From Schoenoplectus triqueter (taxonomy: Eukaryota; Streptophyta; Magnoliopsida; Poales; Cyperaceae): a stretch of DNA of 64,000 nt. Below are positions 1 to 49,426 of the stretch, piece by piece. A program made the position numbers and the translations under genes. Under the pieces are notes generated by a model. The model searched no databases. It saw only the letters and a program-made list of their open reading frames with translations, and was not told the origin of the DNA. Positions within the stretch are counted from its first letter, which is position 1. Every line of letters starts with the position of its first letter. The stretch covers positions 558,001-622,000 of the forward strand of contig CAXKVV010000062.1 in NCBI GenBank assembly GCA_964058805.1. Reading direction: 5' to 3'.

Positions 1-52
1 GATTACTGAAGTATAATTCATATACTTAACAATTAATTATTTTTTATTTCAG

Positions 53-1669
53 GAATCTACACCCTGCAATATCCTTGTTGAGATAGATGATAAACGATAT
101 GAGGCGACAATCGGGAGGATTATTCCGACTGGACTCGCCGAGTATATGCACGGCTCTCCAGTCTTACTCGATGAGGTCCGTGTTACTCCCGATGAGGTTA
201 AAGATGGATTTCACCACATTTGTGTTCTGTTTCCGCCGCCAAATGGACCGGAGTGGCTCGGTGAGCTTGTTGGATTCTTTATCAAATGGCTTATACACCT
301 TATCGAGCTTTGTGAGGTATTTTTTATTTATCTCTATAATTTTAAAATTCATAAATTATTTGTTCACTAATATGTTTAAATGCAGGATAATACACCAAAA
401 AAATCTATGTCCAACAAGAAAAAAACATTCGAGCCAGACCCAATTTTAAAATCTCGTAGAGAGTCGCTTCTTGATGATGACACCTTACAACGTCTTTCTA
501 GACGTTCATTATTTCTATATAAAGTGATCATGACGCAGTCCGTTAGTATGACTTATTTTCCTATCGCATTCTCGGAGCTATTCTTCTACGATGGTGATGC
601 TTATGTATACGTGACGGATATCATCGAGGTTTTTAAGGATGAATGGCTCAATGTCTCGATTCTACAGATTTTCTGCATGTAAGAATAGAATCATAATATT
701 TCTTTTAGCATTTTAATAATTATTTTAAGACTAATTATTGTATATATTGTAGGGTTTCCCACGATACGTGCAAGAGTTTCTTAATTGACAATTGTAAATT
801 TATCGATCCATATTTTTGCACGAAAACACAAATTCAAAGTGATATCGAGCGCACAGTCAATTATTTGGGGGCAATGCTTTGTTAAATGCGAGAATCCAAA
901 CTCCTACATGTTTCTTCCGTACATTGAAAAGTTAGAACTTCAAAACTTAATTCATTTGCTTATTTATCTATTTCTTAATTGCTTAATCTCTCCATATTAA
1001 TACGTATAAATTGTAGGGGGGCATTGGATTCTTTTGATTGTGCGGCTCAAACCCTCTGTTGTTTATGTCGTGGACTAATTGAATCGTAAAGATGAAACAT
1101 ATATTATCCAACCAGTATTAAATATGTAAGTTTTTTCTATTATCTTCGACAATTTATTATGTACTGTAATTGATAACTCATATCATTGTTATATAAGAGC
1201 CTTACGCTATTATTGGATTGAAAAAAATTCGCTCAAGAAAAAAAACTCAAGTTCACTTGGAAAACGATTCAGGTGTGTAATTCCAAATTTTAAATGATTT
1301 GATTTTTTTCAGGTGTGTAATTTCTAACTTTAAATGATTGTTATATAAGGGCCTTACACTATTATTTTATTTTTTTTCTTGTAACATTTTAGAGTCCAAA
1401 ATAACCAAGCGGTAAAGAGTGCGGCTATTATGTTATGAAATCGATGCATAATATAATAACTACATATTCTAGCAACAAAAATTTACCACAGGTATAAAAA
1501 ATAAATTTCATATTAATCTTTAATTCTTTTACATATTTGTTTGCTTAATCAAACTAATGAAATTTTAATTTTTTAATAGGCTATCAAACCAGCTCCTCAA
1601 TCTTATTCACCGGAAGATATCGAAGAAATTAAGGAGATGGTTGTAAATTATATTGCATCTAATATTTGA
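53..1669 (+). pseudogene. Decayed CACTA-associated gene with Ulp1-like (C48) protease region
   Basis: Exon-like blocks with plausible splice sites can be read: 53-316 (acceptor AG at 51-52, donor GT at 317), 386-678 (donor GTAAG at 679) and 753 onward. The last block is 1580-1669, with its acceptor at 1578-1579 and a TGA at 1667-1669. The protein looks like the second ORF product of plant CACTA elements. Ulp1 (C48) cysteine-protease landmarks remain: a GHWILLIV block near 1019, which holds the His, and ECGYYVMKSMH at 1417-1449, which holds the Cys. It is broken: the third block reaches a stop soon after TVNYLGAMLC, and the His block has an in-frame TAA after VVYVVD. I infer a non-functional remnant; the start is outside the window. 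Confidence 0.7.
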
Positions 1670-1849
1670 TAATTTATTTTATATTTTTTTTCTGTTATTT
1701 GTAATGTTTAGTTACTTATATGATATTGATCAGTTATTTAGTGAGTTATATCAGTTTATTTGTGTTATATTTTTGTATGTGTTTGTTTATATATATGGCT
1801 GTATATGGACCAGTCACAGAAAATAAAAAATTTATTAAAAAAATTAATA

Positions 1850-2130
1850 TATTTAGAGCCGGTTATTTAAAGAAACCGGTTTTATTGTGTTATTTTATTA
1901 GAATCGGTTATAAACATAACCGGTTTTAATTCTAAAAGAGATTAGCACCGGTTTTAAATGAAGTAAAATAGAACCGGTTATTCAATAACCGGTTTTAATT
2001 GTTCAAAGTAAATTAGCACCAGTTTTATTAAACCGGTTTTAAATATTTTATTTTAACACCGGTTATAAACCTTTAGTACCGCTTACTTTTAAAACCGGTT
2101 TATAACCGGTGCTAAATTGTTTATAAAACC
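1850..2130. repeat. CACTA subterminal repeat array (ACCGGTT motif)
   Basis: About a dozen copies of ACCGGTT or AACCGGTTTTAA occur in direct and inverted orientation in under 300 bases, with TTAGCACCGGTTTT variants. In CACTA elements such subterminal motifs are transposase-binding sites. The motif is absent from the flanking DNA after 2159. Confidence 0.8.
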
Positions 2131-2142
2131 GGTTTTAATTCT

Positions 2143-2159
2143 TTTTTTTTCTGGTAGTG
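2143..2159 (-). repeat. CACTA right terminal inverted repeat
   Basis: On the minus strand the end reads CACTACCAGAAAAAAAA, the canonical CACTA terminus. Its partner is beyond the left edge of the window. Confidence 0.85.
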
Positions 2160-2941
2160 ACATTTCTGTACCATTGGAGGTTCTAATACCAGTTAAAAAC
2201 ATATTGAGAGAAGAAACTTGTGTACACAGCTAAAAAAATCAATTTAAGTTCAAATAAAACAATGAATTTATATATAAATGAATATATAATTAAATTTGAA
2301 AAATACTGGCACGAACTGTATACCAGTATTGTTACAGAATGTAATTCAGTTTGAAAAATGCTGGTACAGGTTCAAAAATGAATAATTACAGTTTAAACAA
2401 ACATAATTTGACAATAATTTCTTAGCTAATGGCATTTCATAAAGGAGAATGTAAAAATTATTCCAAATTTCTGGTAAGAAATCAAAATTAAAATTCTTAT
2501 GAGAAAAATCAAAATTAACGTCAAATAGGAATAAATTTGTAAAGGACAATATCAAACCTTAATAATATGATACAAATCGACGCAGAACAAGGAAAGAATG
2601 GCGGAGAGAATGGCCTGACTGAGGACAACGGCATGAGAGAATGGCGTCGTTATGAAGATGCAACGAGGCGAGTCGCGATGAAGAAGCATGTAATGAGGAC
2701 GATCCCGATGAAGACCGATGCATTGAGGTCGATCGATCGTCTGTACAGGATTTAGTTGCGAGGCAATACGATAGAGAAAGTAAAGAAGAACGGAATCGGA
2801 AAGAAGCGACGAAGAAGGAAGGAAATATTCGGACACGTGTAGTAACTAATTCAAATACATGTAATTAATATGTTAACGGTTTGGAAGGCAGTTAAGGGTG
2901 GCAAAAGATGGGCACACAAAGATTTTCTCTTCACTAAAAAT
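2160..2941. other. Intergenic, no supported gene
   Basis: AT-rich up to about 2560. A less AT-rich stretch at 2570-2860 can be read as charged, repetitive peptide in more than one frame, but it shows no recognisable domain, no conserved start and no clear codon bias. I see no terminal repeats that would define an element. Confidence 0.5.
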
Positions 2942-3308
2942 AGTCGAGAGTTGTCAAATTTGTGCAATTGATGCAGGACGGCCGATGAAAGCGGTACGGA
3001 GACATTCGGGCTCGTTGATAGATCTGCCCTCGACTGCCACAAGCGGTTGAGCTGTCATTTTCCTGAAAAATTATTAAATTCTTTTCTGCTATTCTTGCCC
3101 GTTAATAGATTTGTACTTGACTGCCGTAAGCGTCACTGGCAGTTATTTTCGTGCGGGCCCATTGAATGCACTAATGGTCTTTGACGGACCCAACATTGAC
3201 TCCAGCGTCAACTCTTGTGAAGAGGCCTAAATTATTTGTTTCTTGTCAATTAATGCATGAAAAAGTAGTCCAAACAATAAACGCAAAGTTGGCAATGAAT
3301 GATCAGAA
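2942..3308 (+). repeat. Dispersed block shared with 29365-29662
   Basis: This block matches 29365-29662 in the same orientation. Shared landmarks include TTCGGGCTCGTTGATAG, GACTGCC..AAGCG, CACTAATGGTCTTTGAC, TCAATTAATGCATGAAAAAG and GTTGGCAATGAATGATCAGAA. The copy here also has an internal tandem duplication of about 90 bases (units starting near 3011 and 3098) that the other copy lacks. No terminal repeats or ORF are visible; it is either an unclassified non-coding repeat or a small segmental duplication. Confidence 0.8.
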
Positions 3309-3499
3309 TTAGGGCTGTTATTCGAGCGAGTTCATAGCAACTCGAACTCAAATCGTAAGTAACTCGAGTTGGACTGACTCGAATAACAGACTTTCATCCG
3401 AGTCAAATATTGAACTCGAGCTCAGCTCAGTGCTAACTCGGGTCAGCTCACAACTCGCGTTTTTGACTCGGATTTAGCAAATATTAAGTGTTTGTAGAA
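3309..3499. other. Short CTCGAG/AACTCG-rich stretch
   Basis: Repeated ACTCGA, CTCGAG and CAGCTCA words occur at about 3325-3475 as a degenerate low-complexity run. No gene is visible. It separates the dispersed block on the left from the foldback repeat on the right. Confidence 0.4.
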
Positions 3500-3700
3500 T
3501 TTGATATTAAATTGAACCTAATTTTTGGTATTGATCTAAATCTAAAATTTGATATTGCTCCGAATCTAGAATTTAGTAATCATCTAAACCTATAATTAAA
3601 TATTTATCTAAAACTAACATTTGATATTAATTTGAATCTATAATTTGGTATTTATCTGAAACTAGAATTTAAAATATCAAGCTCAATATGAATATTATTT
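3500..3700 (+). repeat. Outer tandem repeat of left arm (about 30-bp unit)
   Basis: Degenerate repeats of the form (T)GATATTAATTTGAATCTA / TGGTATTTATCTGAAACTA, with a period of roughly 30 bases. They are complementary to the longer array at 8870-9230 at the other end of the inverted repeat. Confidence 0.65.
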
Positions 3701-4841
3701 AATTTTCAAATTTAAATGTGGTATTTACCTGAACCTGGATATATATTTTTTGAACATGAATATGATAGTTATCTGAATCTAAATTATTATTTTGAACAAT
3801 AAATATGGCAGACTAATGTGGTCCGGATATCAACCTTTTCTTCCTTTTGAAGGACATCAGACATCTCGTAGTTTGTTAGAGGTACATTTCAAACTAATCT
3901 TAAAAAATAATTTATAATTAAATACGTGTGTTAAGTTAATACAAAATAAAAAATTATAGAGAAATGTAAATATTATTCAATTTCACACACATCATCCAAT
4001 TGTGGCCTACTTCTCCATGATTGAGACCAGATTGTAGTCGCTGGAGCTTTTTCATCTCACCAGACTTTGTGAGATTTATTGGGTCTTAACATAAGTTAAT
4101 AAATCACTAAATATTATTAATTAAATAGATTTATCAAAGAATTTGATAAGTATGTCAAAATGATGGAAGTCGAGCTCCGGGGAATTAAACCAAAAGAGCC
4201 AAATTATAGGCAAGAGCCAAAATATAGGTCTCTAATTCAAGTAAAATTCATCCAATTCAGGTAGAATTCATCTGATTTATATAGAATTCATCCGATTTGG
4301 ATAGAATTCATCCGATTCAGATAGAATTCCAACCTTTGCCCAGTCATGTGCGGTTTTGAGCATGGGTTGATTTTTAATGTATTTTTAGGGGTTTTCCCTC
4401 TTCAAATTTGGTGAAATTTAGCAAAGATATGGTTAAGACATGTTATAACCTCCCCACTGTAAGAAACCTTAGAATTAATTTTCGTAGAGCCGAGGTTCTG
4501 CCGAAAATTTATCGGAATCGTCTTAACTATTTCATGTATTAAGAACCATTATATCTAAGTGTTAGAATTCACAGTGAAGGACGAAAGGAACAAGAATAAC
4601 ATTCTCAATTGCCCTAACTACTGATTGAGAAGACGTTTGTAGATTGTTCTAGGTGGATATCGATGGAGAAAATCTCGGTTGGTCTCTTAATGTCATGTGC
4701 ACATCTAGTTTGTTTCTTGCACTTTCCATGACTCAAATGTACATCAAAGATATAATAATTTAGTTTTTAACTTATATTCAGTTTAATTTAATCACATATA
4801 AGATTCTTTTAATATTTTAAAATTATACACTAGTTACACTG

Positions 4842-5888
4842 AAAAAACCCTAAAAATAATATTAGAGCTATTTATTGTTATGTGTGATTTGATTATGGTA
4901 AATCATCAAATTTATATGATTTTTTTCGTTCTTAAAGATAATTTTTTGATGATCATGCATGAATTATCTCATAAAAGACATAAATTTTGACTGATTTAAG
5001 TTGTTAAGACCAATTTTCTAGAGTTGTTGATAAGTTTAACATGATTTGCTTGTAAAAACTCATTAGATTTGATCTTAGATCCACCTTTTTATCTTTATTA
5101 GGTCAATTATTATTGTGGCTGGTCATTAGTTGTCATCCAAGATATTTCCTTTCGATTTTGGCACCCTGATATTAATGGGTTCTTGATTAGACACTGATAT
5201 GGAAGTTTATTAATTTTTTGACAGCGACTTGACCATGTAGGACTGCATTTCTGTATGATTTGGTGATTACATTGAAAGTTAATCAATTGTGCATGATTAT
5301 TATATTACAAGATTACGAAAGACTATAATGGTTTGTGCAAGCGCTGCACAATATTAACTTTATTTTCTAAGAGCGAATTTGTATAGCCCAACATTCTAAA
5401 TAGAGATTATCGTGTCATCGTGACACAGTCCTAAAAAGGTTATCATGCTATATTGTATTATATCGAAATATATCCCACAAAGAGTAAATAAATAATATCA
5501 ATATTTTTTTATCTAATGATTAATGGAGTAGATAAATAAATAACACAAAATAATTGAAAGTACTGCCTAATTTTATTTTAAATTAGGTTTGTTTAGTTTA
5601 AATTGGGTTTATACTACGTTATTGTCAAGTTTTAGTTGTTATTTCAGATAAAAAAATAGAACCCAAGAAGAAAGCAAGAAAAAAAGTATAAGTCGGGGCT
5701 AAATCAAAGCACTGATAACTAAGATGAAAGAAAATTTGATTCAAAATTTATATGAAGTGATTAAGATTATATGTTAATATTATAGAGCTTGTTCTTAGTA
5801 TTTTTTTTTCAACACACTTTGAATCACCTTAATTAGAGTTTGGATGAACTAGTGATGATCATTCAAAATTTCTTATGAAATGTGAACT
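4842..5888. other. Arm-specific insertion of about 1.05 kb
   Basis: Pairing between the two arms runs to ...TTATACACTAG at about 4841 and resumes at about 5888 (ACTAATCAAAATGTACAATA). In the right arm these two points are adjacent (near 7700-7715). ACTA occurs at both edges, a possible short target duplication. The inserted sequence is AT-rich, has no recognisable ORF and has no obvious inverted termini. A deletion in the right arm is the alternative. Confidence 0.6.
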
Positions 5889-6535
5889 AATCAAAATGTA
5901 CAATAGCGTGTAATATTATTGTTATATGCTACATGAAATAGCAATTCTCTATCACCGCTATAACACTAATAGCATAAATAGCACAATGTAGGTATAAAAC
6001 ATAGTGTATGGCCCAAAAAGTATTATAACATCGCCATAGCGTACTATTTAAAACCTATTTAAAACCTTAGTATAGATATAGGTTTAAAATCTTATGTGTT
6101 GTATTAAATGCATGTGAATATTTACAATGATGACCTAAAGTGCCCAATGATATTAATAATTAAATAAGAGTCCTGTCTACCTTCTTCTAAATTTAATTTT
6201 GGTCTTACATGTCAAATTTTATTTAGGATTAGAATCAGAGACTTACAAGTTTAGTTTATTTTTCTCATTGAAATAGTTCTAGATGAGAATGATAATTAGA
6301 TATTATTTTTAATCATGAAGATGATTGTAAGACGATGATTCTAACTCTTACAGATGATAAGATTTAACATACATGAAAGAGTCAAAAATGGGTGCATCAA
6401 AATTTTAAAAAATATTATCACTTTGGGAAAAATTAATTGATAAGTTTCTAATATGAAAAAAACATTTTATAATCTTAGGTAAGTTACATAATATCTCTTT
6501 CACGTTCTTTTTAAGTTTCATCTCATTTGGAGCAA

Positions 6536-7064
6536 AAAAAAAAAAAACTCAAAATCGACCAAAATATGAAAAATCACACAAACCGACCTTGCAAGACTGG
6601 ACTCATACGGGCCTAGTCTACATTTGCACGGTTTGATTGGAGGCTTAGTTTCCAGCTTAGTCCGCACCCTAACCAAGAATCTTCTCCAAAGCTGGATTCA
6701 TCTATTTTGATATACATATCAAATTCTTTGAGAAATATACTTAATTATTCGTATCCAATGATTAATTAACTCATCTTAAGATCTAAAAACTTATATCAAT
6801 TAATTAAAGAATATTTATAAACTTTATTTTTGTATGGTGTGACCCTTTAGAACTTGCACCACTTAGCAATGAAATTATAACTCTTTTAATTCTCAAATAT
6901 CACAAGTGATATCTAACAATGTGTATTATGACTATTAAGTTATACCAATATATAAGTATGATACAAAATATCGTAGTCCTACATAACGATAATATTCTTG
7001 CATTATTCTTTATAAATGAATATCATCACTAAATGTGGCAAAACCTGACTCGAGAAACTTAAAA
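6536..7064. other. Loop of the giant inverted repeat
   Basis: Unpaired central segment between the innermost paired blocks. It contains TAGCAATGAAATTATAACTC and is homologous to the distal part of the copy at 26110-27200. No gene is visible. Confidence 0.7.
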
Positions 7065-8869
7065 AGAGATGAAACTTAAAAAGAACGTGGAAGAGATATT
7101 ATGTAACTTACCTACTATTATAAAAGGATTTTTTTTTCATACTAGAAACTTATCAATTATTTTTTCCCAAAGAGCTAATATACTATCAAAATTTTGATGC
7201 ACTCATTTTTTACTCTCTCATATACGTTGAATCTTATCATCTGTAAGAGTTAGAATCATCATCTTTCAATCATCTTCATGATTAAAAATAATATCTAATT
7301 ATCATTCTCATTTAGAACTATTCCAATGAGAAAAATAAACTAAACATGCATGTCCCTGATTCTAACCCTAAATAAAATTTGACATGTAAGTCCACAATTA
7401 AATTTAGAAGAGGGTAAATAAGACTGTTATTTAATTATTAATATCATTGGACACCTTAGGTCATAATTACAAAAATTCACATGCATTTAATACAACACAT
7501 AAGATTTTAAACATATAACTATACCAAGGTTTTCAATAGTACGCTATAGCGACGCTATAATGCTTTTTGTGTACCAGACACAATGCTTTATACCTACATT
7601 ATGCTATTTATGCTATTAGTGTTATAGCGGTGATAGTGAATCGCTATTGCATGTAGCATATAACATCAATATTACACGTTATTGTACATTTTGATTAGCT
7701 AGTGTATAATTTTAAAAAATTTCAACTAAAATATTCAAAGAATCTTGAATGTGAGTAAATTAAACCCAATACAAGTTCAAAACTAAATTGTTATACCTAT
7801 GATACATGTTTGAGTCAAGGAAAGTGCAGGAAACAAAGTAGACGATCACATGACATCGAGAGACCAACCGAGATTTTTTCCATCGATATCCACCTAGAAC
7901 AACCTACAAACGTCTTCTCAATCACTTGTTAGGGCAATTGAAAATGTTATTCTTGATCCTTTCGCCCTTCACCGTGAATTCTAACTCTTAGATATAACCA
8001 TTCTTAATACATGAGATAGTTAAGATGATTGCGATAAATTTTCAGCAGAACCTCAGCTCTAGGGAAATTAATTCTAATTCTTCTTGCAGTGGGGAGTTTA
8101 TAACATGTCTCAACCATATCTTTGCTAAATTACACCAAATTTGAAGGAAGAAAACCCTAAAAATGAATCCAAAATCAACCCTTGCTCAAAACCGCACATG
8201 ACTTGGCAGGGGCTGAAATTCTAGCTGAACTGGATGAATTCTATATAAATCAGATGTTCTACCTGAATTAGATGAATTTTACTTGAATCAGAGACCTATA
8301 TGTTGGCTCATTTAATTTGGTTTAGTCCGCACAGGGTCCAAAAAAATTGCCCAGAGCTCCACTTTCATCATTTTGACATACTTATTAAATCCTTTGACAA
8401 ATATACTTAATTAATAATATTTAGTGATTTATTAACTAATGGTAAGACCCAATAAATCTCACAAAGTCTGGTGAGATGAAAAAGCTCTAGCGACTACAAT
8501 CTGGTCTCAATCATAGAGATGTAGGCCACAATAGGATCATGATGTGTGCGAAATCGAATAACATTTGCACTTTTCTATAAATTTTTTTGTATTAATTTAA
8601 CACACATATGTAATTATAAATTATTTTTAAGATTAGTTTGAAATGTACCTCTGACAAAGTACGAGATGTCTGATGTCCTTCAAAAGGAAGAAAAGGATGA
8701 TATCCGGATCATGTTAGCCTGCAATATTTATTGTTCAAAATAATAATTCAGATTCAGATAACTACCAGATTCAAGTTCAAAAAATATATATTCAGGTTCA
8801 GAGAAATACCATATTTAAATTTGAAAATTAAATAATATTCATATTCACGTTGGTATTTTAAATTCTAGT

Positions 8870-9230
8870 TTCAGATAAATATCAAATTATAGATTCAAAT
8901 TAATATCAAATTTTTTTTTTAGATAAATATTAAATTATAGGTTCAAATGAATACTAAACTCTAGATTCAGAGCAATATAAAATTTTAGGGTCAGATCAAT
9001 ATCAAAAATTTGGTTAAAATCAATATCAAATTTTAGGTTCAAATTAATATCAAATTCTAGGTTTAGATCAATATTAAATTTTAGGTTCAAACTAAAATCA
9101 AATTCTGTAATAATATTAATATCAAATTCTAGGTTCAGATTAATATCAGATTCTAAATTCAAATTGATATTAAATTTTAGGTTCAGATCAATATTAAATT
9201 TTAGGTTCAATTCAATACCATTTTTTTCTC
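8870..9230 (-). repeat. Outer tandem repeat of right arm (about 30-bp unit)
   Basis: More than ten degenerate units of AATATCAAATTCTAGGTTCA type. An open frame on the minus strand (8935-9210) reads as a repetitive N-L-K/E-F-D/N-I-N peptide, which is simply the translation of the satellite, not a gene. Confidence 0.8.
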
Positions 9231-9235
9231 ACGAC

Positions 9236-9484
9236 AGCCAACTTCTCTTTCTTTCTTTGTATGCACAAATGGTATGACGCATTAGCTTTATATAAGGTTA
9301 GAAAACACCACTCCCACTGATGCACTAGGAGGAAGATGTCAGTCCCAGTGGTGTACTATGGGAAGGTGCTGATGACAACGACGTATATCATGTGCGTCAA
9401 TACCGGTGGCACACTGTCATTTTTAGTTTTAAAATTTAATAATTTTAATTATTATTATTATTAGTAGTAATAAGATTTACCTCA
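9236..9484. other. Intergenic, short dimeric repeat
   Basis: Contains two related units of about 30 bases (CCACTGATGCACTAGGAGG near 9316 and CCAGTGGTGTACTATGGGA near 9346). No gene seen. Confidence 0.4.
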
Positions 9485-9605
9485 TTACATTAAAATATCT
9501 GTGCTGGTTTCATATTGGGGGCAATTTAAGAAGGAATGTTTACGATGCTTGTTTGTTCTTAAAATTTTAATAAGGTGCCTTAGGTACATAGAATATTTGA
9601 ATTAT
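9485..9605 (-). repeat. Inverted copy of the 35.2-kb / 58.9-kb repeat
   Basis: The reverse complement matches 35240-35345 and 58850-58955. Shared words include TATGTACCTAAGG, TTAAGAACAAAC, CCTTCCTAAATTGCCCCCAA and TATGAAA. It is part of the dispersed family that also lies within the intron of the 56-59 kb gene. Confidence 0.75.
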
Positions 9606-10244
9606 ATCGACAAACGTTCCGCGCTCTTTTTAGGAAGTGACTGATGGTCTTTATAAAGCGATCCAACGCAAATAAAAGTTTCTCAACTGAAAAAGATGAA
9701 CAGAACTCCATGGCAAATGCCGGTTGTAGCTGTTTAAGATATTATATCCTGTGCAGTAGTTGTTTAACTTTTTTTCCTCATAAATTTAAAAAAACATTAT
9801 TGTGACTGTCGTAATCGCAGTCCAAATCTAATGACCGTTGTGAATTTGTACGCGTAACAAAAACTTGTCTTACTCTTGTATTTCTCTTTTAATTCTTTCT
9901 TTTCAATTTGTCTTATTGTTTTATTTCTTTTTCATGCATTTGTAGCCCAAAAAGAAATTCAAATTATTGTGGCCTGTGCTTAAGAGTTGACCCCGGAGTC
10001 AAGTTTGGGTTCTCCATGGAGATCGAGATCATTGGTGCATTCAATGGCCCCGCAGCAAGACCGACTCAGCTACTTATGGCCCCGCAGCAAGACCGACTTA
10101 GCTACTTATGGCTGTCAATGGCATACTTTTCAACGGCCGGATAAGCCTTCGTCTAATTAACGGGTATCTCACCCAACATCCATTGATAGCCCTATAAATA
10201 ACTAAATAAAGCACTTTCTTATATCATCACAAGTTCAGAACATT
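9606..10244. other. Intergenic with a 33-bp tandem duplication
   Basis: No supported gene. At 10046-10111 a 33-base unit (GGCCCCGCAGCAAGACCGAC...) is present twice almost perfectly. An open frame over this stretch (9908-10144) has no recognisable domain. Confidence 0.45.
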
Positions 10245-10663
10245 GCTGAGCATATGTTGATACACAGTATCTTCTTTAGAGTCAACAATCCATCACAGAA
10301 AATGCAGAAGATTGTATGAATATTCACAAAAGAACAATGTATCAAGTATCAACTAATTAGCAATTATATTAGTAGGACTTACCGCAGAAAATGGAAGATA
10401 AATTAAGTTCTCTCAAGAAACAGTTGGATTAAAAAACTCCACAAAATGTTGATGTGGTAACGTGCAGACAGTTGACAAGTGCAGTACATCAGTACTGGAG
10501 TATACTGGAAAGTAGTTACTCTTTTCAATCCTTATTCTACTTAGTATCAAATTGAGGTTTTATACCAAGGAAAAAAAATATAAATTACAATGTAAAATTG
10601 TCACTAATGAAGAGAAATAAACCAGAAAAATGCCTAATTTAGAATAAGTTCTAGATCCACTCC
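10245..10663 (+). repeat. Dispersed repeat, direct copy of 36331-36738
   Basis: The whole block, from TATGTTGATACACAGTATC to AGAATAAGTTCT.GATCC, matches 36331-36738 with few differences and in the same orientation. It is non-coding. The copy here ends near the left side of the nested-element region. Confidence 0.85.
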
Positions 10664-11224
10664 AACTTGGCTCCAACCTGTAATTGTTGGCATGGAATTG
10701 TAGAGCCAACATAAGTCGAGGATTAAATTATGAAATAAATAAGTATAAGGGTCTAAATGAATAACTGTGATAATAGCCCTTCTTTTCTGGTTATATGTAC
10801 AAAATTAAACCTCTGGGTGACAAGTGAAATTGTAAAGTAAGCTGAAAAGTAATTTAATCTAAGTTAAGTGGGCTAAAAGATTTTGCGAGATAAAATATTA
10901 TTTAATTAGTTAGTAAGTGCATAAAGTAAATTTGCGCATTGGTGAATAAGGAGATTTAACGAACTTAACTTGTATCTATATCCCACTGATCTTTTAGATT
11001 ATGAATCTGAAACACTGAGCCAATTCATAAATCTAGGGCTATCATACATACAAAATTATATTCGAAGCACTTGGCTGATTCAACATTGAGGTAGACATGC
11101 TAAAATGAATCATGTGACTTTGACAAACTCGAGGTCAAAATTATACGTTTTACGAGGCGGCTGATGTCCGGATGGTCGTGCAAGTGTCATCCTTGTCATC
11201 CTGCTTGTTTTTTTTCCTTATCTT

Positions 11225-12110
11225 CTTCACATGATATGCTCCTTCATGTGATCTTTATCATCATCATCATAATCATCATGTGATCACCATCACTGCATGA
11301 TTATTCTTTCTACATGATCAATATCTCCGTGTGATCATGATCATCATCATCAACTGATCATTTTACCTGAATGATTATCATCTCTGCATGATTATCATAT
11401 CAGTGTGATCATGATTATCATCGTATCTGAACGATTATCATTTCTACATGATCATCATCTCAGTATGATTATCATCATCATCTCTACATGTTCAAAACCC
11501 CCGTGTGATCATGTTCATCATCATCAACTGATCATCTTACCTAAATGATTATCATTTCTACATGATTATTATTTCTGTGTGATCATGATTATCATCATAT
11601 CTGAATGATTATCATCTCTGAATAATCATCATCTCAATATGATTATCATCATCATCTCTACATGATCAACATCTCTGTGTGGTCATGATCATCATTATCA
11701 ACTGATCATCTTACCTGAATGATTATCATCTCTACATGATTATCATTTCAATGTGATCATTATCATCATGTCTACATGATCAGCATCCCCATGTGATCAT
11801 GATTAATATCAAGTGATCATCACATCTGAATGATCATCATTTCTGCATGATTATCATCTCAGTGTAATCATTATCATCATCTATACATGATCAGCATTCC
11901 CATGTGATCATGATTAACATCAAGTGATTATCACATCTGAATGATCATCATCTCTGCATGATCATCATCCCTGTGCGATCATGACTATCATCATGTGATC
12001 ATCAACATAGCCATCATCCCTATATGATTACCATTTTAACATGATCATCATCACTGCCTGATTAGAATATCATCACCTCATAATCATGATCATGATCATC
12101 ATCACTTATC
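11225..12110 (+). repeat. ATGATCATCATC minisatellite with 174-bp higher-order unit
   Basis: A degenerate array of TGATCATCATC / TGATTATCATC words. A marker word (CAACTGATCAT) recurs at 11351, 11525 and 11699, exactly 174 bases apart each time. A diverged unit (AAGTGATCATCACATC) recurs near 11811 and 11922, about 111 bases apart. It does not code in any frame in a gene-like way. Confidence 0.85.
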
Positions 12111-13970: not shown

Positions 13971-14810
13971 ATTAAAATATTATAATCATTATTAAAATAA
14001 AGTATTTTTATCCTGAAAAATAATGGATTTTTAGAAATAAATTTGAGTCAATTTGGAGTTTGGAAATATTTTCAAATGATTTTTATTTACTAATTAAATT
14101 TATTTTTCTGTTATGAACTTAATGGTGTTAGTTTGTAATAATCTTGAAGTCAATAATACGATAAATTGGTTATATAAAGCTTTGTTCATGAATTGGATAT
14201 TTAAACGATATTTTGTTTCCTTGAGTATTATTGAATTTATGAATCATTCCGAGTTCATGACTGGAATTGTGAAACTTCATAATATAGAATATACTCTTAA
14301 AAGTCACTAACCAAGGTAATTAGTAGGAACACTAATTAACCGTATCAGGTTAGTATGTGGATTAAATGATGGTCAAGTTTTACAGACCATAGACAAAGAG
14401 TTATCATTTTAATCACATAGATAGATGTTCTAGGAACATCGTATTTGATAGACCCCGAATGAAACATTAAATGGAATTGTGTTCGTGTCATTAATGTTTT
14501 CGTTCAGTATTAAATTCTAAAGTATTAGGTATTCATCTTTCCTACATAAGATATGTATGTGTGTGATTTCTACCAAACGTTATCCGTAAAAGGTGGCTAT
14601 AAAGGTAGCTCTTCGGTATACATAACTTATGCGGAGGAAGAGATGGTTTGCCAAAAGTACTATTGTCCCTCGTATTTCTATACGAGTTATAGCATCACTG
14701 GGCCCCTTGATAGAGTAAGATTATCTGCTAGCAGTATATTTATAAGAGTAATTATATTTGATAATTTACTCAGGATCAAGAAAAGATTAAGTTTGCAAGG
14801 ATGACACATA

Positions 14811-14815
14811 CCTAC
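14811..14815. repeat. Target-site duplication of element B, left
   Basis: CCTAC, repeated at 20925-20929. The empty site is seen in the other A copy near 41737-41742, where CCTAC occurs once, followed directly by CTTGAAACTG. Confidence 0.9.
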
Positions 14816-24060: not shown

Positions 24061-25195
24061 AACTCGGTGCACATGATCCATAAGGCACTGGGGCCCAGCG
24101 CCAGAGAAAACACACATGAGCCAGGTACACATCGCTTATTTTCTTTTGATTTAAATCTCTATTTAATGATGTATAGGCTTGGTGCATGGGTTAATGAATG
24201 AACTTTCTGTTGAATTGCTGATATATGAGCCCCACATGTAAGATCTATGAGTGTGGGCTCACAAGTTCAGTCATCAACTGCTTAGTGTTAATTAGGCTGA
24301 GGTGGCATGATCTGATAGATTCATTTAATTAAACCCCCTCCTCTAAGCCTAATAGTCTGTTAATTGTCTGCTGACGTGGCCCAATGAGGTGCTGCTAGGT
24401 GACACAAGTGGGACCCACCTGTCAAGTGTGTGGGACCCACATGGGTGAAGTGGACCAATGGGGTGCTGCCATGTGGCACTGACATGCTGAGGTGACCCAA
24501 TGAGGTGCTGTCACGTGGCACCTTCTCTCTCTTCTCTGATTCTGTGTGTGCACACTTGAGATCCCCAGATTGCACCCAGACAAGTCTCTGTCCCCAAGTT
24601 GCACCCTGACAAGTTCTTAATTGCACCCAGACAACTCGGTGCACATGATCCATAAGGCACTGGGGCCCAGCGCCAGAGAAAACACACATGAGCCAGGTAC
24701 ACATCGCTTATTTTCTTTTGATTTAAATCTCTATTTAATGATGTATAGGCTTGGTGCATGGGTTAATGAATGAACTTTCTGTTGAATTGCTGATATATGA
24801 GCCCCACATGTAAGATCTATGAGTGTGGGCTCACAAGTTCAGTCATCAACTGCTTAGTGTTAATTAGGCTGAGGTGGCATGATCTGATAGGTTCATTTAA
24901 TTAAACCCCCTCCTCTAAGCCTAATAGTCTGTTAATTGTCTGCTGACGTGGCCCAATGAGGTGCTGCTAGGTGACACAAGTGGGACCCACCTGTCAAGTG
25001 TGTGGGACCCACATGGGTGAAGTGGACCAATGGGGTGCTGCCATGTGGCACTGACATGCTGATGTGACCCAATGAGGTGCTGTCACGTGGCACCTTCTCT
25101 CTCTTCTCTGATTCTGTGTGTGCACACTTGAGATCCCCAGATTGCACCCAGACAAGTCTTTGTCCCCAAGTTGCACCCTGACAAGTTCTTAATTG
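24061..25195 (+). repeat. Near-perfect tandem duplication, 572-bp period
   Basis: Unit 1 (24061-24632) and unit 2 (24633-25195) begin with AACTCGGTGCACATGATCC and run in parallel to GACAAGTTCTTAATTG. By eye they differ at only a handful of positions (for example GAGGTGACCC against GATGTGACCC). The duplication is therefore much younger than the element B' in which it sits. Minus-strand open frames in each unit are paired copies and have no known domain. Confidence 0.9.
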
Positions 25196-26109: not shown

Positions 26110-27200
26110 ACTAATAGCGTAATATTGGTATAAAACATAGCGTCTTGTACTCAAAAAGCACTATAGCGTCGCTATAGTGTACTATTTAAAATCTTGGTAT
26201 AGCTATATGTTTAAAATCGTATGTGTTGTATTAAATGCATGTGAATATTTATAATGATGATCTAAGGTGCCCAACGATATTAATAATTAAATGATAGTCT
26301 TATTTACTCTCTTCTAAATTTAATTTTGAACTTACATGTTAAATTTTATTTAGAGTCAGAATCAGGGACGTGCAAGGTTAATTTATTTTTCTCATTTTAA
26401 ATGAGAATGATAATTAGATATTATTTTTAATGATGCAAATGCGAAAGACGATGATTCTAAGTCATAGAGATGATAAGATTCTCAATACATGAGAGAGTAA
26501 AAAATGGGTGTATCAAAATTTTGATAGAATATTAACGCTTTGGGCAAAATTAATTGATATGTTTCTAGTACGGAAAAAACTCTTTTATAACCTTAGGTAA
26601 GTTACATAATATCTCTTCCACGTTCTTTTTAAGTTTCATCTCTTTTGGAGCAAAAAAAACTCAAAACCGGCCAAAACATGAAAAATCACACAAACTGACC
26701 TTGCTAGACTGGACTCATATATACGGACCTAGTCTATGTATGCACGGTTTGATTACAGGCCTAGTTTTCGGCTTAGTCCGCATGATACCCAAGAAACTTT
26801 TCCAAAGCTTGATTTATCTATTTTAATATACTTATCAAATGATTAATTAACTCATTTTAAGATCCAAGAAGTTATATTAATTGATCATGGAACATTTATA
26901 AACTTTATTTTTTTATACGGTGTGACCCTTTAAAACTTGCATCATTTAGCAATGAAATTATAACTCTTTTAATCCTCAAATATCACAAGTGACGTCTAAC
27001 AATGTGTATTATGACTATTAAGTTATACTAATATATAAGTATCCTACTAAATATCATAGTTCTACATAATGGTAATCGTCCTAAACTTATTTCATATTGT
27101 ATAATATCCAAAATGATGGAAAACTAGAATATATCATTCTTGCATTATTCTTTATATAGGGACTTGGATATCATCACTAAAGGTGGCAGAACCTGATCCG
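26110..27200 (+). repeat. Non-inverted copy of the foldback inner arm plus loop
   Basis: Collinear with 5965-7050: ACTAATAG, GGTATAAAACATAG, TGTGTTGTATTAAATGCATG, CTTCTAAATTTAATTTTG, AACTCTTTTAAT.CTCAAATA and ATTCTTGCATTATTCTTTAT all occur in order. It has about 60 extra bases near 27070-27140. It begins exactly where B' ends, so B' probably inserted into, or truncated, this copy. Confidence 0.8.
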
Positions 27201-27204
27201 ACCT

Positions 27205-27490
27205 GAAAAACCCACCCGACCTATCCAGACTCGAACCTGACTTAACTTGATTTTTTTTTAAAAAGTCAAACTGACCTAACCCGATCCGAACCCAACATGA
27301 CCCGACACAACCCAAGATCAAATCTTGCAATCCAATTGAAATCTTTCAAAGATCTGAAAAAAAAATATAAAATATAAATTGATCCGATCCTAACTTGACG
27401 CAACCCGACCCAATTTCTTTCAGAAAGTCAAACTGACTCAACCCGTCCGACCCAAAAAGGAACCCAACCCGACACGTCCGATTATCGTCC
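27205..27490 (+). repeat. Degenerate CCGACCCGA-type repeat
   Basis: Repeated words of the type CCTGATCCGACC, CCCGATCCGAACCC and CAACCCGACCC. The same kind of sequence recurs at 50196-50420, 50631-51035 and 61003-61410. Confidence 0.6.
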
Positions 27491-28059
27491 CTAGTCATCA
27501 ATCAAATCAATAAATAAGAGAGAGATCAATATTCTTGTCTCGTATTTCTTCTTCATATAAAAGACATACCGAGATAAAATTTATATAGTTGCCAGTTGTA
27601 ATTAACATTAGTATTCACAAATATAAGTCATTTGTATAAGAAAAGCATTTATCTCATATATAAGAATTAACAAAAAAATAAAATAGAAATGATATAAACA
27701 TAATCTTTATATTATTTTATTATAGATCGGGTCAAATAACATGTCCAACATATTATTTATGTAATTAAGCTAATATCACTCATCTCATGATATGTGAAAT
27801 ACTCTTATCAATTAACTTACACAATAATATATATTAATTATTTCTCCTAGGTAATTAGCATATTGGAGATATTTAAGAGTTATCATTAATTAATATTTGT
27901 GTTTCACAGTTTGGGCTATACAGAATATAAATATACAAATAATGAACAATTTAAGGAATAAATGGCATATCTCAAATAAAGTCATTCTAAGACATAAGCT
28001 AAAGTATAATCTAGAAAATCAATCGAGATGTATGAATGATATTTTGTTCTCTCTAATAT
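27491..28059. other. AT-rich intergenic sequence, nothing recognised
   Basis: No gene, terminal repeat or array visible. Confidence 0.4.
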
Positions 28060-29364: not shown

Positions 29365-29662
29365 AGTAGTTGAGAGCTGTTAAATTTGTGCAGTTCATGC
29401 AGTACTGCCCGATGTAGACGGTACAGAGACGTTCGGGCTCGTTGATAGCTCTGCCCATGACTGCCGTAAGCGTCGTTGAGCAGTCATTTTCCTGAAATAT
29501 TATTTATTTCTGTCATTCGGGCCCATTGACTGCACTAATGGTCTTTGACAGACTCAACTCTTGTGCAAAGGCTACAAAATTATTTATTTCTTTCTGTCAA
29601 TTAATGCATGAAAAAGAAATAGCTCTAACAATAAAAACAAGTTGGCAATGAATGATCAGAAC
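29365..29662 (+). repeat. Dispersed block, second copy of 2942-3308
   Basis: Same order of landmarks as the first copy but without the internal duplication of about 90 bases. Just upstream, GAGAGTTGAGAGTTGAGAGT (29297-29316) is a short 7-bp tandem run. Confidence 0.8.
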
Positions 29663-30765: not shown

Positions 30766-30804
<39 letters not shown>

Positions 30805-30811
30805 GAGAGAG
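30766..30811. repeat. (AT)n and (GA)n microsatellite
   Basis: About 16 AT repeats followed by AATATATAGAGAGAGA, directly abutting the MITE at 30814. Confidence 0.9.
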
Positions 30812-30813
30812 AA

Positions 30814-31219
30814 TAAAGATACCGTGAGATTAATCTCACAGAGTCGTTTTGTGAGTTTAAGTCAAAAAATATACCAAATTGTCTTCAAATTTTAGTTTAT
30901 CATGCACATTAGATTCTTTATATGAAAATATTATGTGATGCAAAGATTTGGAGTGTTTTCAGCTTTTTAAGCCACCATTTTTAATTTTTAAAAATGATGT
31001 TCAAGTATTAAATATTTTATCATTATTTTTAGAGCTGATTTTTAAAAATTAAAAATCATGATTTAAAAAACTCAGAACACTCCAAATTCTTGCATCTCAC
31101 AAGATTTTCATATAAAGAATTTAATGAGAATGATAAATTAAAATTTAGAAATGATTTGATATAGTTTTTGAGTTAAGCTCACACAAAGTCTCCATGAGCT
31201 TAACCTCACGGTATCTTTA
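30814..31219. mobile_element. MITE with long inverted repeats
   Basis: Ends TAAAGATACCGTGAG and CTCACGGTATCTTTA are exact inverted partners. Pairing continues inward over most of the 406 bases (AATTTTAGTTTATCAT with ATGATAAATTAAAATTT-type partners, CCAAATTCTTGCATC with GATGCAAAGATTTGG). It has no ORF and would fold into one long hairpin if transcribed. Confidence 0.85.
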
Positions 31220-31236
31220 CTCATATAATATATATA

Positions 31237-31706
31237 CTAGTTATATAACCGCGCGTTGCAGCAGAATTTTTTATTTAAACATTAAAATATAATAAAATAA
31301 AATAATTCATATTTATCTAATATTAAATTATAAATTCACTAAATTATAGAGAAAATATATAATAAAAACTATATTTAATCTTGGATGAGATTTTTGCACA
31401 ATATGAGTTAATGATTCATGATTTTTATGGCAAGAAAAGTAAATTATTCTAACATATATTATCACCATTAATTTCTTACCAAATATGCACAAGGTTGCTA
31501 AATAAAAAATAAAAATTATGGAAATAATAGTATATATGGGAAAGAAATGGAGAGAAAGAGGGGATCAATGGACGCGATCACATACGTTCGATCAATCAAC
31601 AATAAATATTATCCGTCTAATTGAGGGATAAAATGGGTATAATAAAAATTTACCATAACAAAAAATGGACCCTCCAATTCTTAGATGCTTTATATAATAG
31701 TATAGA
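31237..31706 (-). mobile_element. Small non-autonomous Helitron
   Basis: Read on the minus strand, the element starts TCTATACTATTATATAAAGC and ends with a GC-rich, hairpin-like AACGCGCGG followed by TTATATAACTAG. The 5' TC, the 3' CTAG and insertion between host A and T (A at the 5' side, T at the 3' side) are the Helitron hallmarks, and both termini resemble plant Helitron ends. At 470 bases there is no Rep/helicase gene, so movement would depend on an autonomous relative. Confidence 0.75.
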
Positions 31707-31756: not shown

Positions 31757-32188
31757 TATGCTATGATTAGTCGTGAAGTATAAAATATTTTTGTACTTCA
31801 CGTCGTATCTTTCATTTTCAAATTCAAAACACTGATCCGACCGTTTAAGGTGTTTTCCTTATTATAATATGTCTGGAGATTAAATTTTATATTTTTTAGA
31901 AATTTTTTACTATTATTTTAGGGGATGAAAATACATTGAGTTTATGATTTCTAATAAGAATAATTTTCTAATCCTCAAAAAATAGAAAAAAAAATTCTAA
32001 AAAAAATATAAAATTTGGTCTCCAAACATAGTTTAATATAGAGAACACTTTTAATATAAAATTTGGTCTCCAAATATATTTTAATATAGAGAACACTTTT
32101 AACAGTCGGATCAGTTTTTGAATTCGAAAATGAGAGAAACGATGTGAAGTACAAAAAGATTTTATACTTCGTGACTAACCGTAGCATA
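31757..32188. mobile_element. MITE with inverted repeats of about 100 bp
   Basis: Ends TATGCTATGATTAGT and ACTAACCGTAGCATA pair. Pairing continues through GAAGTATAAAAT.TTTTTGTACTTCAC and TGATCCGAC. Internally a 48-base unit (AAATTTGGTCTCCAAA...ACACTTTT) is duplicated at 32011 and 32059. The small frames here are non-coding. Confidence 0.8.
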
Positions 32189-40400: not shown

Positions 40401-41062
40401 GAGCTTGGTACAGCAAGATTGATGGATACTTTGCAGAAAATGGTTTTGTGAGGAGCAGCAGTGAACATAGTCTGTATGTGAAGAAGACTGGATCAAATGA
40501 TTTCTTGCTTGTGTGTATTTATGTAGATGATATGATCTACATGGGGTCAAATCAGGATTTGATTGAGAAATTTAAAGAAAGTATGAAGAGGAAGTTTGAG
40601 ATGACAGATTTAGGTGTGTTAAAATATTTTCTGGGACTGGAAGTAACACAGGATGATGAGGGAATCTTTGTATCACAGAGGAAGTATGCAAAGGATTTGT
40701 TGAGCAAGTTCAATTTGGGAAACTACAATGCAGTCAGTACACCAATGAATGCAAAAGAAAAACTGATAAAAGAAGATGGAAGTCCTTTGGCAGATGCTGC
40801 AAAATATAGGAGTTTGGTTGGAGGACTCATATATCTCACACATACACGTCCTGATATTTCATTTCCAGTTGGAGTCGTGTCCAGATTCATGCACAATCCC
40901 ACAAGGCACCATATGGGAGCAGCAAAGAGGATACTTAGATATATTGCTGGAACTGTTGAATTCGGGTTATGGTATGCAACTGATAATACAGAAAAGTTAA
41001 CAGGATATAGCGATAGCGACTGGGCTGGATGCTATGAGGACATGAAAAGTGTTAGTTTGTAA
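37418..41062 (+). CDS. Copia Gag-Pol polyprotein, truncated by the solo LTR
   Basis: 1214-codon frame from the first ATG after the primer site. Gag occupies about residues 1-250, with an RG-rich stretch and two CCHC zinc knuckles (Cys at 253 and 276). The protease motif DSG is at D335. The pre-integrase HHCC-like region (HQRYGHL) follows, then the integrase D529, D592, E628 triad with the expected 35-residue D-E spacing. The reverse transcriptase YVDD starts at Y1035. RNase H begins (SDSDWAG) and is cut after codon 1210 by LTR A; the last codons and the stop come from that LTR. The rest of RNase H continues in a compatible frame at 43156-43594. As it stands the product lacks most of RNase H, so the copy should be unable to replicate alone. 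Confidence 0.95.
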   Translation: MSDSMNQSPIPQFDGENYNFWCIKMKTLLKSHGLWDAVETGVTGTDTESVKKDSRAICLIQQGVSDVVFPKIAAAETAKDAWTNLSTSYEGNTRVKTMKLQGLRREFETLLMKPVESVQLFLTRVQNIVNQMKVLGGTVTDEMVVSKVLRSLKPEFDHVVAAIEESKDLTTYSLDELSGSLQTHESRLRRREEVIGEQAFYVRGDAMRGRGRRGRGYGSRGGRTSRESSSQGGRTTDSYDQDSSEEYKKSVRCYNCNKLGHYQAECKESGKKVVRCYHCNKLGHTKAQCYTRKREEEQASFAQEGEEVQEEENEDVLFMASTGHEVDPTSIWFLDSGCSNHMSGHRDQFVTLDEAFKRQVKLGDSKAIHVEGKGIVSVMTASGMRHLRNVYFIPKLSQNLLSIGQLTENGYAVAFNGKTCTIRDESSDQLIATVEMAPNKLFPLEMITVKDHALITKEVKVSDLWHQRYGHLNGTSLKLLNQKGLVHGLPEIDDLEFCEGCVYGKQSRKSFPKHQGRKTEEILEVIHTDLVGPMKTTSLGGSKYFLLFTDDFSRKSWIYFLGAKSETFAQFKKFKALVETQTGNKIKILRSDNGGEFTSKEFNEFCDREGLHHELTTPYTPQQNGVAERKNRTVIEMGRSLLKHAKLPKDFWAEAVGTAVYLLNRAPTKALNGETPIQVWSGKKPDVSHLKVFGCIAYGFINEQKRDKLDNKALKQIFIGYSERTKGYRLYNPVDGKVTVNRSVVFDEGNYWNWNEKEEAKIDGTVTGTATIGDEIEDMWGRSESNEEQEIQTREERTEIPLKTYVRRGKETRKDVSEINRKTRTLADLYQATHAMLVADPTCFEEAANKEEWNKAMQEEIAAIERNNTWNLVRLPEGKNVISVKWLYKTKIGSDGKLVKHKARLVVRGFTQEQGVDFDETFAPVARFETIRTILAIAARLKLTVHQFDVKSAFLNGELKEDVYIEQLRGFEIHGKEEMVYKLNKALYGLKQAPRAWYSKIDGYFAENGFVRSSSEHSLYVKKTGSNDFLLVCIYVDDMIYMGSNQDLIEKFKESMKRKFEMTDLGVLKYFLGLEVTQDDEGIFVSQRKYAKDLLSKFNLGNYNAVSTPMNAKEKLIKEDGSPLADAAKYRSLVGGLIYLTHTRPDISFPVGVVSRFMHNPTRHHMGAAKRILRYIAGTVEFGLWYATDNTEKLTGYSDSDWAGCYEDMKSVSL
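41045..41049. repeat. Target-site duplication of solo LTR A, left
   Basis: AAAAG, repeated at 43151-43155. Confidence 0.95.
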
Positions 41063-43150
41063 TAATCTTGAAGTCAATAATACGATAAATTTGTTATATA
41101 AAGCTTTGTTCATGAATTGGATATTTAAATGATATTTTGTTTCCTTGAGTATTATTGAATTTATGAATCATTCCGAGTTCATGACTGGAATTGTGAAACT
41201 TCATAATATAGAATATACTCTTAAAAGTCACTAACCAAGGTAATTAGCATGAACACTAATTAACCGCTATCAGGTTAGTATGTGGATTAAATGATGGTCA
41301 AGTTTTACAGACCATAGACAAAGAGTTGTCATTTTAATCACATAGATAGATGTTCTAGGAACATCGTATTTGACAGACCCCGAATGAAACATTAAATGGA
41401 ATTGTGTTCGTGTCATTAATGTTTTCGTTCAGTGTTAAATTCTAAAGTATGAGGTATTCATCTTTCTTACATAAGATATGTATGTGTGTGATTTCTACCA
41501 AACGTTATCCGTAAAAGGTGGCTATAAAGGTAGCTCTTCGGTATACATAACTTATGCGGAGGAAGAGATGGTTTGCCAAAAATACTATTGTCCCTCGTAT
41601 TTCTATACGAGTTATAGCATCACTGGGCCCCTTGATAGAGTAAGATTATCTGCTAGCAGTATAATTACAAGAGTAATTATATTTGATAATTTACTCAGGA
41701 TCAAGAAAAGATTAAGTTTGCAAGGATGACACATACCTACCTTGAAACTGATCTGATAGCTATGAGACAAAAGAATTAAACACAAGTAAATAGTTTACTG
41801 GATCATGATATTGTACAGTACATCATCATCTGTGTAATTGGATGGTCATAGTGCATTCTGCCAGATGCCTCCTATGATTATAGAAGTTAAAACAGTTTTA
41901 ACTCTATTTACCAACATAACACGGATCCTGTCGGGTCACACCGTATAGGAGTTAATCGGAGAATCTTATTGATTAATTATAAATTGTTTATAATTAATAA
42001 TAAGATGGTTATAATTAATTATATATGATATAATTATATTTGTCATAGAGATGACAAGAAGCAAAAATCAGATTGAATTTATAACGTGTTGGACACGTCG
42101 TATAAATTCGCCGAAACAACAACCGAGAAAAATATAATTGTACATGACAATTATATATATTTGATTTGGATTTTAAATGTTAATTATGGATTTGAATTAT
42201 GGGCCAAAGCCCATTTATAATTAAAGCCTTAATTAATAATTAAAAGCCCAAAATCAGAAAAGCCCAAAAAAGCCCAAAATTGAAAAGCCCAAAATCCGAA
42301 AAGCCCATGCCGACCTCCAAGGGTATTTTGGTAATTTGTCCAAAAGCCCAAGGGTATTTCGGTAATTTGGCAAAAGCCCAATGGCATTTTGGTAAATTGA
42401 ATGAACTTTAAGGGTATTTTGGTCTTTTCACTTTGAAACCTCCCTACTATTCACGAGGGCATTTTGGTAATTTGGCAACTCCACTTTTTCTATAAATAGA
42501 GGGGTAGGGTGAGAGAGAAAGTTCCACCAAATCAGTTCTACTTTCTCTCTCTCGGTATACGGTTGTTTCAGAATTCACGGGATCGGTGAATAGTGTTTTT
42601 ACGAAAGTTGCGGTATTTCTGCACATTTGTGAAACAGAATTACTACGAGTCGTGAATAGTACTATTTCGTCTTTTCTCGGGTGAATAGTGTTTTTGCGAG
42701 AAACCGCGGTTTACGGTATTTCTGGCAAAAGAAATAAACCGCTCTCTGGTCAGTCCTGGTGGATAACCTACAGAGGCATCAGACGTTTGGTGCTCCGAGA
42801 CAAGCCGATTTTCATTCCAATTGAAATTTGGAAGCGAGGTATAACATTTTATATTAATCTATTTAATTGTTAAGTAGATTAATATTTTAGAAATCAATCA
42901 TGGAGTAGATCAATAAAGGTTTAAAGAGGTGTGTATCTCTCGGTAATCATCCGACACATCACTTTAACCCTAAGCTTAAGTTAGAAGTAAAATAATATTT
43001 TACCGTCTTTTGTAAAGGATTAAATGTCTGTAACTCTCGGTTATTATCCGACATACTTTAATCCCTAACTTAAGTAGAAGTAAAATTTTTGTTCTACGGT
43101 CTTTCCGCAGCTTGAGCATTAACGGGATTTGGGCATTCCGAATCCCAACA
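41050..43150 (+). mobile_element. Solo LTR of family A inside copia
   Basis: 2101 bases, starting TGTTAGTTTG and ending AATCCCAACA, with AAAAG duplicated at both edges. It is collinear and nearly identical to the split copy at 14126-22331. No internal region or second LTR is present, so it is the product of LTR-LTR recombination after insertion. It carries a TATAAATAG box at 42491-42499 and the array of AAGGGTATTTTGGTAATTTG-type units (about 42317-42475). Short open frames at 41478-41729 and 42688-42873 recur in the other copy and are LTR sequence, not genes. Confidence 0.95.
42491..42499 (+). promoter_or_regulatory. Probable TATA box of LTR A
   Basis: TATAAATAG followed by AGGGGTAGGGTGAGAGAGAAA, a plant-like core promoter and leader. 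Conserved at 21672-21680 in the other copy. Confidence 0.6.
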
Positions 43151-48439: not shown

Positions 48440-48787
48440 GAGTCGTGGTTTGAGAAATCGGTTGATTCCGAATAGAATCCGCCGAAAACGAGACGATTTT
48501 GACCCGAATTACTCGGCCACGACTTTTTGCACGAAATCGCGAAGGAGACTACTAATTCCCCAAATTACTTGTCGAGAATGACACATTTGAGGATGTGTAT
48601 TTCTGCACTCAACTAATTTGAAAGTCTTAGACGGCGTTTTGTGGCGTGGGAGAGCTTCAAAGGGAGCGAAGGGTTCGCCGTCGGCAGGAAAAGAAAAGTT
48701 GCTGTGCTTAATTATTTTAATTATTGCACATGGTGCATGCACCATTAATTACAATTATTATATTTCCGTAGGAAATTTTATGTATCA
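48440..48787 (-). other. 5' flank of the resistance gene
   Basis: Less AT-rich leader-like DNA upstream of the ATG. No TATA box is obvious. No other gene seen. Confidence 0.4.
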
Positions 48788-49134: not shown

Positions 49135-49159
49135 TTAGTACCTTAACTCTAAAACAAAT

Positions 49160-49372
49160 GGAAGTGTGTGAGGTTCAAAGCACTTTGAATCAAAAAATGG
49201 TTTAAATCCTTTTAGAATTGTTGATTTTGCAATGAGATTCGTAATGATTATTGAAAGTATGAATTTTGAACTTAGATTTTATTAAAACTACGAATCTTTA
49301 TGCAAAATCAACATTCTAGAAGGCTTTGAACCAATTTTTTGGTTCGAAGTGCTTTGAACCTCCCCCACTTCC
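49160..49372. mobile_element. Small Mutator-like MITE
   Basis: 213 bases with inverted repeats of about 90 bases (GGAAGTG.G.GAGGTTCAAAG at the ends, TGTTGATTTTGCA further in). A perfect 9-bp target duplication AAAACAAAT lies at 49151-49159 and 49373-49381. It is almost entirely hairpin, with no ORF. Confidence 0.9.
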
Positions 49373-49426
49373 AAAACAAATAGGGTTGTCAATAGATCAG
49401 ATTCGAATCGAATTCTGAAGGATCTA

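Follow-up and report, generated by a model that had tools for sequence, protein, structure and literature searches.

Most foldback elements are said, in the report on Tetris, to belong to the Mutator superfamily (PMC4079207). Mu killer, a derivative of maize MuDR, is described as an inverted duplication flanked by two copies of one MuDR end; a hairpin RNA was proposed as its product, although according to the paper short antisense transcripts are more likely to be the agent (PMC3440606). Here we describe a long imperfect palindrome in a window of 64,000 nucleotides from Schoenoplectus triqueter (contig CAXKVV010000062.1, called C60 below, C60:558001-622000; all positions without a contig name are window positions). 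Like the Mutator foldbacks Tm1 (PMC3169594) and Tetris (PMC4079207), the palindrome has long arms in inverted orientation with a middle domain between them, tandem repeats (24 nt here) near its outer ends, and an outer end from a family that makes 9-bp target duplications. Unlike them, it lacks the left terminus, its arms are made of unrelated nested transposons, and no dispersed copies were found in the 82 Mb searched (40 of 84 candidates scored). It resembles Mu killer (PMC3440606) in being a partial inverted transposon duplication with both ends taken from the same element end, here that of an element designated X; it differs in that its arms consist mostly of a Copia leader and long terminal repeat (LTR) plus the X end, are 9-12% diverged and share few exact 21-mers with 18 dispersed loci. 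Probably, a single nest of dead transposons that already existed was duplicated here in inverted orientation, and Mu killer would be the closest functional analogue of the locus.

Repeat searches together with BLAST and MAFFT alignments bore out the long inverted repeat that an earlier note on this DNA had placed at about 3500-9235. The left arm occupies 3495-6528 and the right arm, in reverse orientation, 7062-9035; the loop between them (6529-7061) measures 533 bases, in line with the 530 or so estimated before, and continues an LTR that begins in the left arm. BLAST aligned an outer block (3495-4819 against 9035-7727) at 86% over 1340 columns and an inner block (5887-6528 against 7698-7062) at 88% over 648 columns, and MAFFT gave identities of 1146/1298 (88.3%) and 572/631 (90.6%) for the outer and inner block, respectively; the arms have thus diverged at 9-12% of aligned bases. 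The inverted repeat is beyond chance by a wide margin. Aligned base by base, the arms form Watson-Crick pairs at 1718 of 1929 positions, with 45 G-U pairs and 166 mismatches, and the summed predicted duplex energy of the seven paired blocks was -2278 kcal/mol, compared with -410 kcal/mol when each partner was shuffled once. On these predictions, a transcript of the blocks would form a very stable duplex. Contrary to the earlier note, pairing does not extend over nearly the whole of the arms: left-arm positions 4820-5886 (1,067 bases) are unpaired, and opposite them lie only 28 right-arm bases, 7699-7726, which mark a deletion scar.

Comparison with other loci of the genome indicates that the arm bodies are Copia remnants together with remnants of other transposons. 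In the left arm, the 3′ part of a Copia LTR (LTR1, 4086-4568) lies in sense on the forward strand; its first portion, 4086-4160, matches both LTRs of the relatives L020 and C1194, and its inner edge at about 4569 is placed from the LTR start in L020. There follows segment B (4569-5386, forward strand), the leader between the 5′ LTR and gag-pol, of which 4820-5386 has no right-arm counterpart. The leader is interrupted by an insertion, Z (5387-6066, no strand assigned), and resumes as segment A (6067-6350, forward strand, right end approximate). The identity of B to its relatives is about 71-75% in 12 fetched contigs, and A, which adjoins B in most relatives, reaches 73-81%. Z is flanked by a 9-bp target duplication within the leader, the uninterrupted site TTTGTATAG could be read in L015, L016 and L021, and Z-like sequence without segment A occurs in C471, C1615, C1777 and others. 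The next segment (LTR2, 6360-7061, reverse strand, start approximate) is the antisense beginning of another Copia LTR; it forms the left arm's inner end to 6528 and then the loop, and its stretch 6697-6993 matches the LTRs of L020 and others. A Copia family of the same genome (C1194, C992 and others) appears to be the source of LTR1, of the B/A leader and of LTR2. The element order in C1194 is LTR, B, A, reverse transcriptase, LTR; C1194 and C992 differ from the palindrome in that their leader lies between 5′ LTR and gag-pol, with no leader palindrome in the fetched stretches. Likewise, no inverted self-match of at least 90 nt involved the Copia leader in any of 13 sequences that were fetched (12 containing this leader, one containing X). 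Pfam matches in relatives carrying the same leader comprised RVT_2 in L018 and L022, an integrase core in L021 and an SH3 domain in L016; the open reading frame (ORF) of L020 gave no Pfam match.

From the loop outward, the right arm holds the inverted start of LTR2, A (7255-7527), a Z remnant to 7698, the scar, B with LTR1 (7727-8445), and X from 8452. Alignment of the arms shows the same nest in both: a Copia leader with Z, a reversed Copia LTR adjoining it and a truncated X joined to it. Because the right boundary of the Z insertion in the leader and the X/LTR1 junction are common to both, the arms would be copies of one nest. Independent insertion of two element copies in opposite directions is rejected on the strength of these same two shared features and of a closer match between the two arms than between either arm and the dispersed relatives compared. 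In a tree of segment A with 16 rows, a split with 100/100 support set the arms and two non-palindromic homologues apart from eight dispersed Copia leaders; the rows for the arms, six in all, formed two clades, one of three left arms and one of three right arms.

The fold-back itself could be read against these two homologues. The first, at 26113-28000 (forward strand) and about 17 kb from the palindrome, consists of a Z fragment, A and a nearly complete antisense LTR2, which spans 26456-28000 and is interrupted by about 335 bases. The same arrangement recurs from C2081:266325 onward (L030), where A is followed by antisense LTR2 and there is no right arm. In both homologues LTR2 runs past the point at which the right arm of the window begins; the window loop tracks them to about 7048-7053 and then becomes the inverted arm, from which we infer a fold-back junction near 7061. 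The junction region (7054-7083, forward strand) bears a 13-nt direct repeat, GAAACTTAAAAAG, with copies at 7054-7066 and 7071-7083, and this sequence reappears as its reverse complement at left-arm 6507-6519. Taken with the non-palindromic homologue, the junction is consistent with a DNA end or replication strand in LTR2 that would have switched at about 7061 back to the left side, 533 bases behind, and then copied the nest outward in reverse. Later, the right arm would have lost about 1.07 kb and the left arm its X terminus, while the arms drifted 9-12% apart, and the palindrome was probably multiplied as a passenger of large C60 duplications. Most of these steps are readable from the uninterrupted insertion sites, the non-palindromic homologue and the three paralogous copies described below, two of them with a CACTA element.

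X forms the outermost part of each arm. The left copy (3495-4079, reverse strand) is a truncated, putatively Mutator-type non-autonomous element whose terminus is missing; it pairs with right-arm 8452-9035 and matches L026 5132-5724 at 74%. Right-arm X matches L026 4722-5724, so that both arms contain the same end region of X. On the right, X continues past the arm into its terminus (9228-9503, reverse strand), which reads CACAG... inward, and the element end lies at 9503, not at the earlier right boundary of 9235; seven among the 24 genome matches listed end at 9501-9503. Related tandem arrays are present at both outer ends, as the earlier note had claimed, and the unit is 24 bases rather than about 30, with higher-order periods of 48, 72 and 96; the left array (3498-3670) has about 7 copies and the right one (8860-9217) about 15. 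Judged by the 9-bp target duplications of its relatives, X is a member of the Mutator superfamily. In the three relatives with both ends readable, such duplications were recognized by eye in all three (L035 9/9, L026 9/9, L038 8/9), at offsets from the aligned ends of 1-4 bases in L026 and 2 in L038; in L036 and L037 a single end was read. A CACTA assignment of X, suggested by its CAC end, was dropped, the complete relatives having 9-bp and not 3-bp target duplications.

On the left side, 3303-3494 (forward strand) holds the 5′ part of a short repeat, W, which starts with TAGGGCTGTTA at about 3312 and is truncated approximately at the start of the left arm. The W relatives L031-L034 match up to 3494/3495, beyond which L031, L032 and L034 continue with common sequence that is absent here and L033 differs. 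The left edge at 3494/3495 joins two truncated elements, W and the X array, and the left X terminus, beside which a target duplication would lie, is lost. Immediately outside the palindrome lies a further inverted pair of segments (3152-3280 and 9913-10054, 72%), which look promoter-like to the eye alone; a direct copy lies at 29504-29661.

A search of the assembly (82.09 Mb in 2086 contigs, possibly incomplete; 40 of 84 whole-unit candidates scored, which makes the counts lower bounds) found whole-unit copies only at C60:111.6k, 330.6k and 561.5k, the last being that of the window, with spacings of 219 and 231 kb. The three copies share flanking sequence that extends for 3.4 kb or more to the left and 2.3 kb or more to the right. 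No dispersed whole-unit copy with the same anatomy was found among the scored candidates. Over the tabulated regions the 111k and 330k copies differ at 11 positions, and the window copy differs from the others by 1.7% in the left flank and by 1.1-2.9% in the right flank. Two of the three palindromes carry a 13.4-kb CACTA-type element in the right arm. This insert has the ends CACAACTA.../...TAGTAGTG and AGG duplicated on both sides; in the 111k copy it occupies C60:116402-129792 and, in a coding search made on that copy, carries Transposase_21. The window has the empty target site, AGG, at 8333-8335 (forward strand), which is filled in the other two copies.

Several observations weigh against an inverted duplication of a single nest. 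The segment A tree leaves left arm, right arm and the 26k/C2081 pair as an unresolved three-way split. Over the inner segment, left and right arm agree at 430/474, better than the 26k homologue does with the left arm (405/463) or the right arm (414/465), which speaks for a single nest; the 26k homologue and C2081, however, agree at 459/476, and as C2081 has no palindrome though the arms differ more than the 26k and C2081 homologues do, a loss at C2081 must be assumed. C2081 also joins the X terminus to the right flank (90.5%), and the right edge may be native there instead of marking where the copying ended. To the left of the window-equivalent position 8928, C2081 consists of DNA matching nothing in the window. 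Either C2081 lost its palindrome, or the palindrome is younger than the right edge. A simple pre-palindrome allele at C2081 is unsupported, since L029 begins to match the window at 8928, and does so rightward only, and its positions 1-8374 have no match to the window. The relative ages are based on short, AT-rich alignments. In addition, two inverted copies joined by deletion would give nearly the same map, and either arm may be the copy.

A former Mutator/Foldback element would account for the same architecture if X had taken up the Copia nest, been turned by aberrant repair into a foldback with long terminal repeats, transposed here and then been deprived of its left terminus. At the right edge stands a true X terminus, the X relatives L035, L026 and L038 have 9-bp target duplications, and Mutator-type foldbacks are described with composite tandem-repeat ends and duplications of 8-10 bp (PMC3169594, PMC4079207). 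Both arms have the same X end, as both Mu killer ends come from one MuDR end (PMC3440606). The architecture and the outer end thus fit the foldback element proposed in the earlier note; its other expected traits do not, a W/X junction standing in place of a matching left terminus, and, among the 40 of 84 candidates scored, three paralogous C60 places with common flanks in place of independent dispersed insertions. Given a Mutator-type terminus at the outer end and a lost left end, we keep foldback membership as a minority view that is rather unlikely. A hairpin of foldback appearance can evidently multiply without transposing itself, which calls for caution in naming foldbacks from architecture alone. 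Palindromes are difficult to assemble, and the 111k and 330k copies are so nearly identical that either might represent an assembly duplicate of the other. That the right arm is a misassembled reversed left arm, the outcome named beforehand as refuting the feature, is nevertheless extremely improbable: the arms are 9-12% diverged, the right arm lacks 1.07 kb, the structure is present at two further places, and the window copy combines its flank differences from them with a clean empty CACTA site. Overall, the inverted duplication of one nest appears to illustrate clearly an already familiar type of accident, and not a new mobile element.

The paralogous copies have diverged unevenly. Comparing the window copy with the 111k copy, we counted 105 substitutions over window positions 1-10250, where the scan was ended because substitutions are much denser beyond. 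The coldest segment, 2568-9358 (6,790 bp), contains 37 of them, and the other 3,460 bp contain 68, mostly on the left. Its score was 20.95, whereas 200 uniform shuffles gave at most 10.5, a comparison that presumes a single even rate and leaves room for regional differences in mutation. By zone, there were 37 substitutions in 6009 positions within 3495-9503, 60 in 3494 to the left and 8 in 747 to the right; counted to 11000, the right flank had 44 in 1497. The contrast is therefore clear on the left and weak on the near right, and the cold tract overlaps the palindrome without matching it. Conversion between paralogous copies is the likeliest cause, and the lower divergence of the tract hints at a possible role of palindromes in favouring such conversion. 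Constraint on pairing was unsupported by the 22 arm substitutions between the copies, of which 11 abolish or weaken a pair, 10 create one and 1 leaves a mismatch in place. Changes in the inner arms, 21 on the left and 14 on the right in 435 columns, were too few to judge a C-to-T decay signature. A giant Mutator-type foldback with a captured nested retrotransposon leader, its copies kept homogeneous by hairpin-provoked conversion or by selection on a hairpin RNA, seems to us improbable. A complex minisatellite of ATCATCATC-type units at 11260-11992 shows dense substitutions between the paralogous copies.

The locus might alternatively work as a silencing locus like maize Mu killer, its hairpin small RNAs acting on Copia and Mutator-type relatives. 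Its architecture resembles that of Mu killer, with inverted copies of one element end and a loop; the predicted duplexes are strong, with perfect runs up to 45 bp, and two paralogous copies are less diverged in and around the palindrome than to the left of it. However, only 201 of the 1954 right-arm 21-mers pair perfectly, and the arm substitutions show the lack of pairing preference given above. Moreover, when the roughly 4767 arm 21-mers were sought in the 18 fetched dispersed loci, 7 loci shared 2-6 and 11 shared none; 61 were shared by the 26k relic, 85 by L030 and 17 by L029. With so few exact 21-mers in common, silencing beyond the locus and its relics looks weak today, and any hairpin RNA would act mainly on the palindrome copies and close relics. 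We regard a working silencing locus as very improbable. No structured RNA family was matched in window positions 1-12000 at the Rfam gathering threshold.

The remainder of the window holds further imperfect palindromes of 180-470 bp (30780-31247, 31757-32188, 49159-49373 and 63066-63245), perhaps small inverted-repeat transposons, and a Copia ORF of 1226 codons. A repeat of about 690 bp is present at 14126-14815 and 41050-41740; 37 of the 41 genome matches listed for it lie at 96-99%, and it is perhaps a young LTR. A tandem duplication of 563 bp (24061-24623 and 24633-25195) has 99.5% identity. A coiled-coil NB-LRR gene is contained in two overlapping ORFs on the reverse strand, 45475-46998 and 46949-48508, and its two best protein relatives come from Typha (39% identity) and Rhynchospora (43%). 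A partner of this gene at C2081:286044-290063 matches it at 99% and contains an interruption of about 0.8 kb, and C1428 has copies at 87-89%.

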